IMG/VR virus record: IMGVR_UViG_3300045996_001835
Location: 1-51,544 of that record
DNA from: a virus
DNA length: 51,544 nt
Strand: one strand, 5' to 3'
Position 1 is the stretch's first letter. Each line of letters begins with the position of its first letter. Below the pieces are notes generated by a model. It worked only from the letters and a program-made list of their open reading frames with translations. It was not told the DNA's origin and made no database searches. Below are positions 5,316 through 44,325 of the stretch, piece after piece. Both the position numbers and the translations under genes were made by a program.

Positions 5316-6281
5316 ATGGAAAGAAGAAGAGCGCACATAGTCAATTACTCGGGCGGTATCGGTTCTTACGTGGCCGCTAAACGCGTTAAGGAACGACACG
5401 GCGAAACAGATTTGATTTTGCTATTTACAGATACGATGACCGAGCACCCAGACCTGTATCGTTTCTTGGTCGAATCTGCGGCGAGGTTGTTTTGTGGTGG
5501 CACGAATCGCCACGATGCTCGCAGGCTGGTAGACCTCGCCAGACAGATACCCGAACTGTCACGCGAGACCGAAATCCTGCGCAAGCAGTTAATTCACAAG
5601 TTGCGTAAAGCGGCGACGAGGGTAATACCTGGCCTTGAGTGGCTCTGTGAGGGTCGAACGGTCTGGGAGCTTTTTAAAGATGAAAGATTTATCGGCAACA
5701 CGAAGGCAGACATCTGCTCCCGTGTGCTTAAGAGGGAAATGGCCGATGGCTACGTGAAGGCATTCCACACGCCTGAAACATGCGTGCGATACCTTGGCAT
5801 AGACATCTTCGAAGAGCATCGATATCTCAGAGCAAAAGAGTTGTTTCGCCCGTGGGTATTGGAGGCTCCGCTTTGTGACAAACCATACTACAGCAAAGAA
5901 GACATGAAGAGAATTGTTGAGGAGGATGAAATGCAGATACCTCAACTTTATATCGATGGCTTCGACCATAACAACTGTGGCGGATTTTGCAGCAAGGCGG
6001 GTCAAGGGCATTTTAAAAATTTGCTCCTAAAAAGGCCCGCTTATTTCGGATACAACGAAGACGAAGAGAATGACACGCGCGCCATTGTTGGCGACTATTC
6101 TGTTCTTCGCGACCGCACAGGCGGCGTCACAAAACCTCTAACATTGACGGCACTGCGCAAGAAAGTAGAGGAGAAAAAACCAATAGAAGAAAACGACTGG
6201 CGCGGTTGTGCGTGTTTCTTCGACACGTCCGACTCGCCCGACGCAGCCGACCATGAATTAGAGGCGGTGACATCCCCATGA
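5316..6281 (+). CDS. PAPS reductase-like / adenine nucleotide alpha-hydrolase protein
   Basis: 321 residues with an N-type ATP pyrophosphatase PP-loop, SGGIGS at 12-17, followed by LLFTDTMTEHPD. This is the adenylate-binding core of PAPS reductase and DndC-like proteins. A Cys pair near the C-terminus (HNNCGGFCSKAGQGH) and a conserved-looking CSRVLKRE may carry sulfur or a cluster. Family members activate a substrate by adenylation, often for sulfur transfer. Phage homologues are common but mostly unassigned; a role in DNA or nucleotide modification is inference. It overlaps the next gene by ATGA. Confidence 0.75.
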   Translation: MERRRAHIVNYSGGIGSYVAAKRVKERHGETDLILLFTDTMTEHPDLYRFLVESAARLFCGGTNRHDARRLVDLARQIPELSRETEILRKQLIHKLRKAATRVIPGLEWLCEGRTVWELFKDERFIGNTKADICSRVLKREMADGYVKAFHTPETCVRYLGIDIFEEHRYLRAKELFRPWVLEAPLCDKPYYSKEDMKRIVEEDEMQIPQLYIDGFDHNNCGGFCSKAGQGHFKNLLLKRPAYFGYNEDEENDTRAIVGDYSVLRDRTGGVTKPLTLTALRKKVEEKKPIEENDWRGCACFFDTSDSPDAADHELEAVTSP

Positions 6282-6763: not shown

Positions 6764-7023
6764 CAGCCGCCAAACGTAACCGCAAGCGTGGCCGCGTCGA
6801 GTGCGACGACTGCGCGAGATCGGGCTACAAGAAAACCGGAAATCTTATGCCCGCCGGCTGGTCGAAGAGCGGTCCCTGGCTGAGGCGGCTACTATGCCCG
6901 GACTGTGCGGCGAACCATAAAGCATCAGTTGAACGCAGTGCTGCGCGCGCGAGAGAAGCGCAGGAATCGGAAGCCGTCGCCATGCGCGAGGAGCGGGAGT
7001 TGTATGGGGCGGAGGGGAGATAG
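6760..7023 (+). CDS. Small zinc-ribbon-like protein
   Basis: 87 residues. CDDC at 16-19 and CPDC about 30 residues later form a likely four-cysteine zinc ribbon, followed by an Ala/Arg/Glu-rich helix. The N-terminus is strongly basic (KRNRKRGR), so nucleic-acid binding is plausible. It ends one base before the methyltransferase start. Confidence 0.65.
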   Translation: MTAAKRNRKRGRVECDDCARSGYKKTGNLMPAGWSKSGPWLRRLLCPDCAANHKASVERSAARAREAQESEAVAMREERELYGAEGR

Positions 7024-7024
7024 C

Positions 7025-7750
7025 GTGCTGACATTTATATCCCTGTTCGCAGGTATCGGCGGGATGGACTTAGGCTTAGAGCGTGCGGGGATGCGGTGCG
7101 TGGCACAGGTGGAGATAGACGACTATGCAAACAGAGTGCTTGAGAAGAACTGGCCAGATGTTCCTCGATATCGAGACGTGCGAGAAGTTGGAAAGCACAA
7201 CCTGCCAACCGCCGATATCATCTGTGGTGGCTTTCCATGCCAAGACCTTGCCTATTGCGGGCTTGGAGCTGGCCTCGATGGTGAGCGGTCTGGATTATGG
7301 CGCGAGTACCACCGTATCATTCGCGAGTTACGACCCAGATACGTCCTCGTGGAAAACGTCGCAGCTTTGCTTAACAGGGGAATTGATAGAGTTCTCCGAG
7401 ACCTGGCCACGTGCGGGTATGATGCGGAATGGAGAATGTTTCGAGCGTCCGACTTCGGACTGCCCCATCGCAGAGAACGGCTGTTTATTGTTGCCTACCC
7501 CGACGAAGTCGATGGGCAAGCGGGGGTGGGGATTGAGCAGAACCGGACGCGCACGATACTCCCCACAGATAATCCACGATGCGTTCCTGTTCGGATACAA
7601 GCCGCCCATCGCTTTATTGGAATGGATGATGGGGTTCCCGCCCGACTTTACGAAGGCAGAGCAGGCGGAATCGGAAACGCCGTAGCTGTACCAGTTGCTG
7701 AATTTATTGGCAACTGCATTTTGAAATACCACAAGGAAACAACCCCATGA
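7025..7750 (+). CDS. DNA (cytosine-5-)-methyltransferase
   Basis: Transfers a methyl group from SAM to C5 of cytosine, probably to shield phage DNA from host restriction. In 241 residues: motif I LFAGIGG (7-13), motif IV GGFPCQDL with catalytic Cys72, motif VI ENV (110-112), motif VIII RRER (149-152), motif X GNAVAVP near the C-terminus. The target-recognition stretch between VIII and X is only about 60 residues, so the protein is short for the family. The GTG at 7025 has GGAGGGG 7 nt upstream. Open frame extends upstream to 6905 inside the preceding gene, and an ATG at 7004 is possible. A second frame (7278-7685) overlaps it. Confidence 0.9.
   Translation: MLTFISLFAGIGGMDLGLERAGMRCVAQVEIDDYANRVLEKNWPDVPRYRDVREVGKHNLPTADIICGGFPCQDLAYCGLGAGLDGERSGLWREYHRIIRELRPRYVLVENVAALLNRGIDRVLRDLATCGYDAEWRMFRASDFGLPHRRERLFIVAYPDEVDGQAGVGIEQNRTRTILPTDNPRCVPVRIQAAHRFIGMDDGVPARLYEGRAGGIGNAVAVPVAEFIGNCILKYHKETTP
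7278..7685 (+). CDS. Overlapping frame inside the methyltransferase gene
   Basis: A +1 frame, open from 7125 to 7685 and entirely inside the methyltransferase gene. An ATG at 7278 has GGAG 9 nt upstream; another ATG is at 7125. Its translation carries segments I recognise from phage methyltransferase-associated proteins: DTSSWKTSQL, WPRAGMMRNGE and LLEWMMGFPPDF. Those segments are read from the same bases as ENVAALL, GYDAEW and GMDDGVPARL of the methyltransferase. It may be a real overlapping gene or an out-of-frame echo of conserved methyltransferase DNA. Confidence 0.4.
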   Translation: MVSGLDYGASTTVSFASYDPDTSSWKTSQLCLTGELIEFSETWPRAGMMRNGECFERPTSDCPIAENGCLLLPTPTKSMGKRGWGLSRTGRARYSPQIIHDAFLFGYKPPIALLEWMMGFPPDFTKAEQAESETP

Positions 7751-7980
7751 CCACACCCATATTCATGCACCTGTTCGCACGCCTCATCCTAGCGCTCATA
7801 GCCCTCATAGTGGCCTATTATGTGGCTGGTGGTATCAGACGCTGCTTTACCCGCCAATCGCGCCAGAGAGACCGTGAGACACGCTACAACGCGTCGAGAT
7901 ACTACGAGACACAGTGCGAGCATATTCTTCGTAATCGCTGGATGTTTCGCTGTGAGGATGAAGTGGGGGTGGCGGCGTGA
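7747..7980 (+). CDS. Small single-pass membrane protein
   Basis: 77 residues with one N-terminal membrane segment (LFARLILALIALIVAYYVAG), then a basic cytoplasmic-type tail. It overlaps its neighbours by ATGA and GTGA. Function unknown. Confidence 0.65.
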   Translation: MTTPIFMHLFARLILALIALIVAYYVAGGIRRCFTRQSRQRDRETRYNASRYYETQCEHILRNRWMFRCEDEVGVAA

Positions 7981-8306
7981 GTGACTCTCAAGCAATCAGC
8001 GACGCCCTCCATCGCATCGAACAGGCCAAGGCTCAATATCCTGACACACTTCTGTTCGTCAGGCTAGGTGACTTCTACGAGTGCTACGGCATCGACGCCG
8101 AAACAGTAGCCCAAGAGCTAGAAATAGTGCTGACCCGCACCAGCAAAGCCAGCGACGCGCTCAAAATGACCGGGGTACCATACCACGCGGTCGAAAGGTA
8201 TGTACAGCAGCTCAACAACAAAGGGTATAGGTGCGCCATCCTAGAGCCGGGTGCGCAAGGTGCAATACTGCGCTCCCCTGGTAGCCTTGCGCCACACGCC
8301 GCCTAA
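7977..8306 (+). CDS. Stand-alone MutS domain I (mismatch-recognition) protein
   Basis: 109 residues that are essentially only the N-terminal mismatch-recognition domain of MutS. FVRLGDFYECYG contains the F-x-E wedge motif (Phe33, Glu35) that stacks on a mispaired base in full MutS. MTGVPYHAVERYVQQL and GYRCAILE match the rest of the domain. The connector, lever, clamp and ATPase domains are absent. The GTG start overlaps the previous stop. It lies just before the ERF recombinase, so mismatch sensing in recombination or interference with host MutS are both possible inferences. Confidence 0.85.
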   Translation: MSDSQAISDALHRIEQAKAQYPDTLLFVRLGDFYECYGIDAETVAQELEIVLTRTSKASDALKMTGVPYHAVERYVQQLNNKGYRCAILEPGAQGAILRSPGSLAPHAA

Positions 8307-43299: not shown

Positions 43300-44325
43300 T
43301 TAGGTGCTCTTTTTTCGAGTATTGGTATAGCCTCGTAACTGTTTCTGTTCGCGTGCTGCTTTGAGGGGCGCTGTCTTCGACGGCCTGGAGTTCTTGGCGT
43401 TAATGGCGCGATTTAAGATCATGAATTCATCCTTGACCTTGGTCTCCATAGCCTTGCGTGAGACCTTGCCCGCACCCTCTAGAATCGGCTTGTCATTGAA
43501 ATTAAAGAACTCTCGCAATTTTACCACCCAGTCCAGCATCCTCATTGGCTTCCCCTCTAGGCTACGCAGCTCAGCGAATGACAGAAATTGCTCTACTAGA
43601 AGTTCAAGCCTTTTCATTTCATCTTCATTTAAATAGTTTTTAGCGACACGGGCATCATCTAGGCTAATACGGTCGCCCTTCCATGAGGTCAGGCCCATGT
43701 ATGGTTTCGAAGCATCTGCGCGCTGAACGATAATCTCGGCTGCCGTGTGTCCGTGGGTGGCGTAGTGAAACTGATTCTGGATTACTGCAAAAAATTCGTG
43801 TGCCATTTCGGACTTGGCGTCGTAGTCGGTGCTGGTCGCGAATATGTCTGTGACTTTAAGATAGAATGACTTTTCGGAAGTTCGAATGCTTCGGATGCGC
43901 GCGAGAAGGTCATCGAAGCGCTTTCCCTCGCCCTCCATGAGTTTCTGCTCATTTAGAACGAATCCCTTGGTGAGGTATTCGCGTAACCTATTCGTTGCCC
44001 ACTGCCGAAATTTGGTGCCGATCTTTGAGTTAACCCTATAGCCAAGGGATATGATGAGGTCTAAGTTGTAGAATGTAACATTCCTCGTAACCTGTCTATC
44101 TCCCTCATTTCGAACTGTCCGGAAATTCCGGATAGTTGAATCTTTCTCTAATTCTCCCTCGTCGTATATATTGTTAATATGCTCACTGATGGTTCGCACA
44201 TCTCGCTGGAAAAGCTCGGCCATCTGGGCTTGGGACATCCACACAGTTTCGTCATATAGCGCGACCTGGACTTGCGGCAAGCCATCGACCCTACATAATT
44301 CTAGTTGACCTTTGCTTTCTGCCAT
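43300..44325 (-). CDS. RhuM-family protein
   Basis: 341 residues. VWMSQAQMAELFQRDVRTIS, DLIISLGYRVNSKIGTKFRQ and the C-terminal DWVVKLREFFNFND are the RhuM-family pattern. Members occur in islands and phages and are linked to virulence or defence, with no defined biochemistry. Its gene contains a 25-bp near-palindrome (44113-44137) resembling the terminal-repeat dyad. Own promoter/operator and terminator make it a single-gene cargo unit. Confidence 0.85.
   Translation of the reverse strand: MAESKGQLELCRVDGLPQVQVALYDETVWMSQAQMAELFQRDVRTISEHINNIYDEGELEKDSTIRNFRTVRNEGDRQVTRNVTFYNLDLIISLGYRVNSKIGTKFRQWATNRLREYLTKGFVLNEQKLMEGEGKRFDDLLARIRSIRTSEKSFYLKVTDIFATSTDYDAKSEMAHEFFAVIQNQFHYATHGHTAAEIIVQRADASKPYMGLTSWKGDRISLDDARVAKNYLNEDEMKRLELLVEQFLSFAELRSLEGKPMRMLDWVVKLREFFNFNDKPILEGAGKVSRKAMETKVKDEFMILNRAINAKNSRPSKTAPLKAAREQKQLRGYTNTRKKST
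44113..44137. promoter_or_regulatory. Near-palindrome inside rhuM, twin of the origin dyad
   Basis: AACTGTCCGGAA-A-TTCCGGATAGTT pairs with one mismatch over 12-bp arms. It matches the dyad at 36-60 in 22 of 26 bases, though it also encodes TIRNFRTV of RhuM. Confidence 0.35.

Follow-up and report, generated by a model that had tools for sequence, protein, structure and literature searches.

A probable two-chain cytosine methyltransferase whose small chain is nested out of frame in the gene of its catalytic chain, in phages and bacteria

In a 51.5-kb IMG/VR virus record (IMGVR_UViG_3300045996_001835; the whole stretch of 51,544 nucleotides is called the window here), a cytosine methyltransferase gene is overlapped by a second reading frame, and the locus is interpreted, with a probability of roughly 85%, as a split two-chain m5C methyltransferase like M.EcoHK31I, with the gene of a small chain (beta) nested in that of the large chain (alpha). 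Beta is under selection at the protein level, is nested in alpha in both phages and bacteria, and is placed where ordinary enzymes have their recognition domain and motif IX. In the proposed mechanism, alpha (7025–7750) would form the large, catalytic, SAM-binding domain with motifs I–VIII and X, and beta, initiated within the gene and probably at ATG 7278, would be translated in +1 and provide the target-recognition segment and the motif IX that alpha lacks. The two chains are predicted to associate into one enzyme, which would act in a sequence-specific manner. Orphan phage methyltransferases usually shield phage DNA from restriction, and for this reason the enzyme would most likely methylate the DNA of the phage itself, as a defence against host restriction, for example.

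The alpha gene and the motifs read from its sequence are located as follows.

7011–7019, plus strand: strong ribosome-binding site GGAGGGGAG, predicted from the consensus, 5 nt before GTG 7025
7025–7750, plus strand: alpha gene, encoding the 241-aa large (catalytic) chain of a C5-cytosine methyltransferase from a GTG start (PF00145, PHROG 363, model against M.HhaI)
7046–7063, plus strand: alpha motif I, FAGIGG
7226–7246, plus strand: alpha motif IV, GGFPCQD, with the catalytic Cys
7352–7372, plus strand: alpha motif VI, ENVAALL
7466–7492, plus strand: alpha motif VIII, HRRERLFIV
7667–7693, plus strand: alpha motif X, GIGNAVAVP, with a confident C-terminal helix (residues 222–239) in the alpha model

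Motifs I–VIII and X of the C5-methyltransferases are present in order, including I, IV (PCQ), VI (ENV), VIII and X, and motif IX is absent. PHROG 363, a family named DNA methyltransferase, matches alpha (1.5e-72), and the PF00145 match (9.9e-52) covers residues 3–163 only, stopping at profile position 166 of 324. The structural model of alpha corresponds, from one end to the other, to the large domain of the canonical single-chain enzyme M.HhaI (2uyc; Z 25.3, rmsd 3.2, 205 residues aligned, 30% identity). M.HhaI includes a target-recognition domain (TRD) and motif IX in its single chain. Alpha lacks both: the Pfam match ends early, and residues 162–217 are modelled as a spacer of about 50 residues, disordered at 162–175 and 182–217 and nowhere else in the chain. 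The predicted disorder falls exactly where beta would encode the recognition segment and motif IX. A search for near-identical DNA among phages returned no match.

The sequence-only reading of the window had drawn attention to a 561-nt open frame at 7125–7685, and this frame is present, with 186 codons in +1 relative to the methyltransferase frame; the peptides WKTSQL, WPRAGMMRNGE and LLEWMMGFP are encoded in it and overlap, in +1, ENVAALL, GYDAEW and DDGVPAR of alpha. PHROG 1008 matches the longer beta frame (6.7e-18), and a Pfam search with the frame gave no match. PHROG 1008 and PHROG 363 are separate families, both called 'DNA methyltransferase', and are here two frames of one DNA segment. 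The frame keeps only part of its proposed extent as a gene, with constraint as beta protein at about 7319–7660 and an echo of alpha at 7125–7315. Its segments are the following.

7125–7315, plus strand: upstream part of the longer frame (its residues 1–63), open, without selection as beta protein (third-base and beta-frame identity)
7265–7268, plus strand: GGAG, candidate beta ribosome-binding site, 9 nt before ATG 7278 (sequence; start and SD enrichment in the family)
7278–7685, plus strand: beta gene at its preferred extent, in +1 to alpha and 135 aa long, beginning at ATG with GTG 7281 as the alternative (onset of constraint at about 7319; starts in homologues)
7319–7433, plus strand: beta N-terminal cap (SFASYDPDTSSWKTSQ ... 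ETWPRAGMMRNG), over alpha motifs VI and VII (alignment; third-base identity 0.5–0.87; beta identity at codons 98–136 of 0.48 observed vs 0.26 expected from alpha alone)
7488–7619, plus strand: beta LPTP motif and variable segment, the presumed target-recognition domain, of the window type PTKSMGKRGWG...RYS...FGYKPP (alignment)
7620–7652, plus strand: beta motif-IX-like EWMMGFPPDFT, over alpha GMDDGVPARLY (third-base identity 0.80–0.87; beta identity at codons 193–212 of 0.53 observed vs 0.21 expected from alpha alone; weak profile register)

A frame lying inside a conserved gene may seem conserved and open through the protein conservation and codon bias of that gene, and an echo of this kind does exist at the locus: shuffled alpha codons still reach a median of 85 bits with the beta profile, and the upstream stretch 7125–7315 is fully consistent with it, beta-frame identity there being 0.25 against 0.23 expected. 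Yet the echo does not explain the beta signal, since real loci score a median of 196 bits. In a synonymous-site test on the fourfold-degenerate third bases of alpha in 135–145 diverged homologues, third-base identity was 0.26–0.40 (about 0.30) before codon 96, as for unconstrained sites, rose to 0.5–0.87 over most of codons 98–212 (window about 7319–7660), and dropped to 0.25–0.32 after the beta core, with two dips inside the core, around codons 139–151 and in the variable segment. The restriction of this constraint to the core refutes the echo for 7319–7660, and third-base constraint and beta-frame identity together delimit the constrained beta protein to about 7319–7660. When alpha codons were resampled synonymously, only 4% of trials preserved an open +1 frame, and the mean was 4.4 stops; that the real loci have no stops in this test is by construction, beta matches having been sought in open frames, and the fair comparison is hence with full-length methyltransferases.

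That comparison drew on the PF00145 proteins of ten bacterial genomes carrying a nested pair. In seventeen C5-methyltransferases with a full-length Pfam match, the +1 frame was interrupted by 4–20 stops and scored no more than 3.2 bits with beta, so that canonical enzymes have neither the open frame nor the beta signal that an echo would give them. Among nine proteins with a short Pfam match, eight had 0–1 stops and scored 80–166 bits; the ninth (L276) is the same canonical ORF as one of the other entries (L269). With these results the probability of an echo as the general explanation becomes negligible. The sequence-only reading had offered a true overlapping gene pair and an echo of the methyltransferase as alternatives: the former holds for about 7319–7685, where alone alpha is synonymously constrained and beta identity is about twice the alpha-only expectation, and the latter for 7125–7315 and not for the rest. 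Frequent +1 stops and an undiminished rate of synonymous change, which it had named as grounds for rejecting the pair, were looked for and not found. In the slot of motif IX the direction is probably reversed, alpha DDGVP looking like an echo of beta MMGFP.

The nested arrangement is widespread. Among 80 viral loci collected by beta and 80 collected separately by alpha alone, a beta-profile match in the +1 frame overlapping alpha was found in 79 and 80, respectively, and beta lies in +1 inside alpha in at least 158 of the 160, unsplit cases being counted conservatively. The 80 bacterial loci, drawn from many phyla, comprise 79 +1 overlaps and one locus with the alpha N-terminus in the beta frame; these loci were found with one beta query (L108) and, being selected by beta, show nesting wherever beta occurs and not its frequency.

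The start of beta was approached through homologues. Eight homologues with an in-frame stop 15–24 aa before the beta core all have a start at −13/−14 aa and an SD-like site, which points to ATG 7278 (or GTG 7281) as the window equivalent. Across the family, a start with an SD site at −13 to −15 aa occurs in 53 of 145 loci, against an expected proportion of 0.257 (z 3.0); start codons farther upstream are likewise enriched, and one locus (L008) has an in-frame stop 2 aa ahead of the core and no start in between. On these sequence patterns, ATG 7278 is the likelier start, preferred and not proven. Beta could instead be produced by ribosomal frameshifting from the alpha start, a route that would suit the roughly 35 loci in which the beta frame is open back to that start and the several in which the alpha N-terminus is read in the beta frame. 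In the latter (L001 2309–3000, L002 2210–2904, L070 and L071 2300–3246, L175 and L206), motifs I–III of alpha are in the beta frame and the rest in the usual frame, the switch lying upstream of the dual-coded core; a natural split, frameshifting or sequence error are all possible there. Visual inspection of the switches revealed no common slippery site, the nine-C run at the switch of L002 could be an assembly error, and other loci interpose the stop and the SD-preceded start described above. Frameshifting is accordingly regarded as very unlikely, and initiation at an internal start is preferred.

The alignment of beta proteins shows a conserved cap (YDPDTSSWKTSQ...TWPRSGMMRNG), the LPTP motif, a variable segment and a P..EWxMGFPxGWT end. 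The variable segment diverges strongly among loci between conserved flanks, and the window type recurs in nine of them (L001–L008, L096). This order, and the place of the segments between alpha motifs VIII and X, match the layout of a target-recognition domain with motif IX behind it, which the segments are presumed to be. Aligned profile to profile with ordinary methyltransferases, beta in its best register places EWLMGFPxGWT on motif IX, with a weak match (P 0.03), and a joined alpha-beta-alpha chain brought no gain over a shuffled control in Pfam. The model of beta alone is of low confidence (pLDDT 69, pTM 0.38); it matched no solved PDB structure in a fold search, and against BFVD it matched phage methylases at low TM-scores. 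A sequence comparison of beta with the PDB gave only kelch-type matches, which were dismissed as due to chance.

Beta might also be a genuine overlapping gene that serves a separate function instead of recognition, for example in regulation or anti-restriction. In favour of this, its cap has no relatives outside the overlap in the sequence and fold searches made, and its low-confidence model gives no recognizable fold. Against this, alpha lacks exactly the TRD and motif IX, beta has a variable segment and a motif-IX-like end at that place, full-length enzymes are devoid of beta, and in two loci (L122, L162) beta is joined to motif X in one chain. A separate function is hence held to be unlikely, although less so than frameshifting.

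The two-chain reading of the locus is favoured because natural two-chain C5-methyltransferases exist, M.EcoHK31I and M.AquI, and because the beta chains of L122 and L162 run from EWxMG straight into motif X. In M.EcoHK31I the small gene reportedly lies inside the large gene in an alternative frame, as Lee et al. are said to have described in 1995; at the window locus, too, an out-of-frame small gene is contained in the large one. M.EcoHK31I (YGGCCR) is a two-polypeptide enzyme with motifs I–VIII and X in the large chain and motif IX in the small chain, and its predicted TRD has been placed in the large chain (PMC3404938). Going by this description of the chains, the window alpha, with I–VIII and X and without IX, is alike, and the position and the EWMMGFP pattern of beta fit a small chain carrying motif IX, with the weak profile match noted above. 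Unlike in M.EcoHK31I, the variable segment is here in beta and the alpha spacer is disordered. Two Enterobacteriaceae plasmid enzymes examined for kinship with EcoHK31I gave no beta match; the frame of one (L278) itself encodes motif IX, and for the other (L279) the match runs to the end of the examined stretch. In M.AquI (CYCGRG), a two-subunit enzyme, the protein is naturally divided after motif VIII and before the recognition region (PMC3404938). Streptomyces phage Vash (L162) and L122 resemble it in having motif X in beta; in the window, unlike in M.AquI, motif X is in alpha and both genes share nearly all their DNA.

Several loci depart from the layout of the window. In the staggered loci L162 (1793–2849) and L122 (2642–3515), alpha ends after motif VIII, still overlapped, and the beta chain comprises the variable segment, the presumed motif IX and motif X. 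In L055, L056 and L076, alpha also ends after motif VIII, the beta frame, in which PTP segments repeat, continues for at least 400 codons, and motif X is found where the alpha frame is open again farther on. The alpha match of L200, L202 and L214 consists of two same-frame pieces split by a stop codon, through recoding or breakage. In Mycobacterium phage Llama and several relatives (L167, 1697–2456), both frames are broken at one site, apparently by a single indel in the overlap, and the annotation shows two adjacent DNA methylase genes.

Elsewhere, beta is mostly, although not always, missed in annotation. The feature tables of three phages (ShroomBoi, BF1-TP2 and phiGT1) carry one methylase feature at the locus and leave beta unannotated, as do those of a B. 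fragilis and an A. baumannii plasmid. In phage Vash an additional, shorter methylase call (2262–2849 in L162) covers the later part of the beta frame and starts well downstream of the onset of the beta match. No description of the alpha/beta overlap in phages was found in the literature searched, a search that most subscription papers lay beyond. The nested arrangement itself has precedent; new are how widely it occurs and how seldom beta is annotated. Within the same literature, the nested form as the rule in a broad family and the location of the variable recognition segment in beta appear to be unreported.

These observations bear on the short 'cytosine methyltransferases' recorded for phages and bacteria, which are probably half-enzymes with a usually unannotated partner; alpha cloned alone would be expected to yield an inactive enzyme, and specificity prediction from it would be misled. 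With its hundreds of natural examples, the family also lends itself to the study of two proteins evolving in one piece of DNA. A broader history, to which even odds are given, is that of an ancient C5-methyltransferase branch, spanning phages and many bacterial phyla, in which the specificity subunit has remained encoded out of frame within the catalytic gene: the beta cap would have overprinted motifs VI–VIII, and specificity would diversify in the dual-coded region, the alpha spacer being free to change.

Around the locus, the window encodes a phosphoadenosine phosphosulfate reductase-like protein upstream of the methyltransferase (5316–6281; PHROG 424, 4.7e-32) and, two genes past it, a 109-aa protein consisting of a stand-alone MutS domain I (7977–8306; PF01624, 8.5e-24). 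A RhuM family protein lies on the minus strand at 43300–44325 (PF13310, 3.3e-99). ParB-like and ParA-like partition genes on the minus strand at 529–2242 (PHROG 4715, 164) suggest a plasmid-like prophage state.
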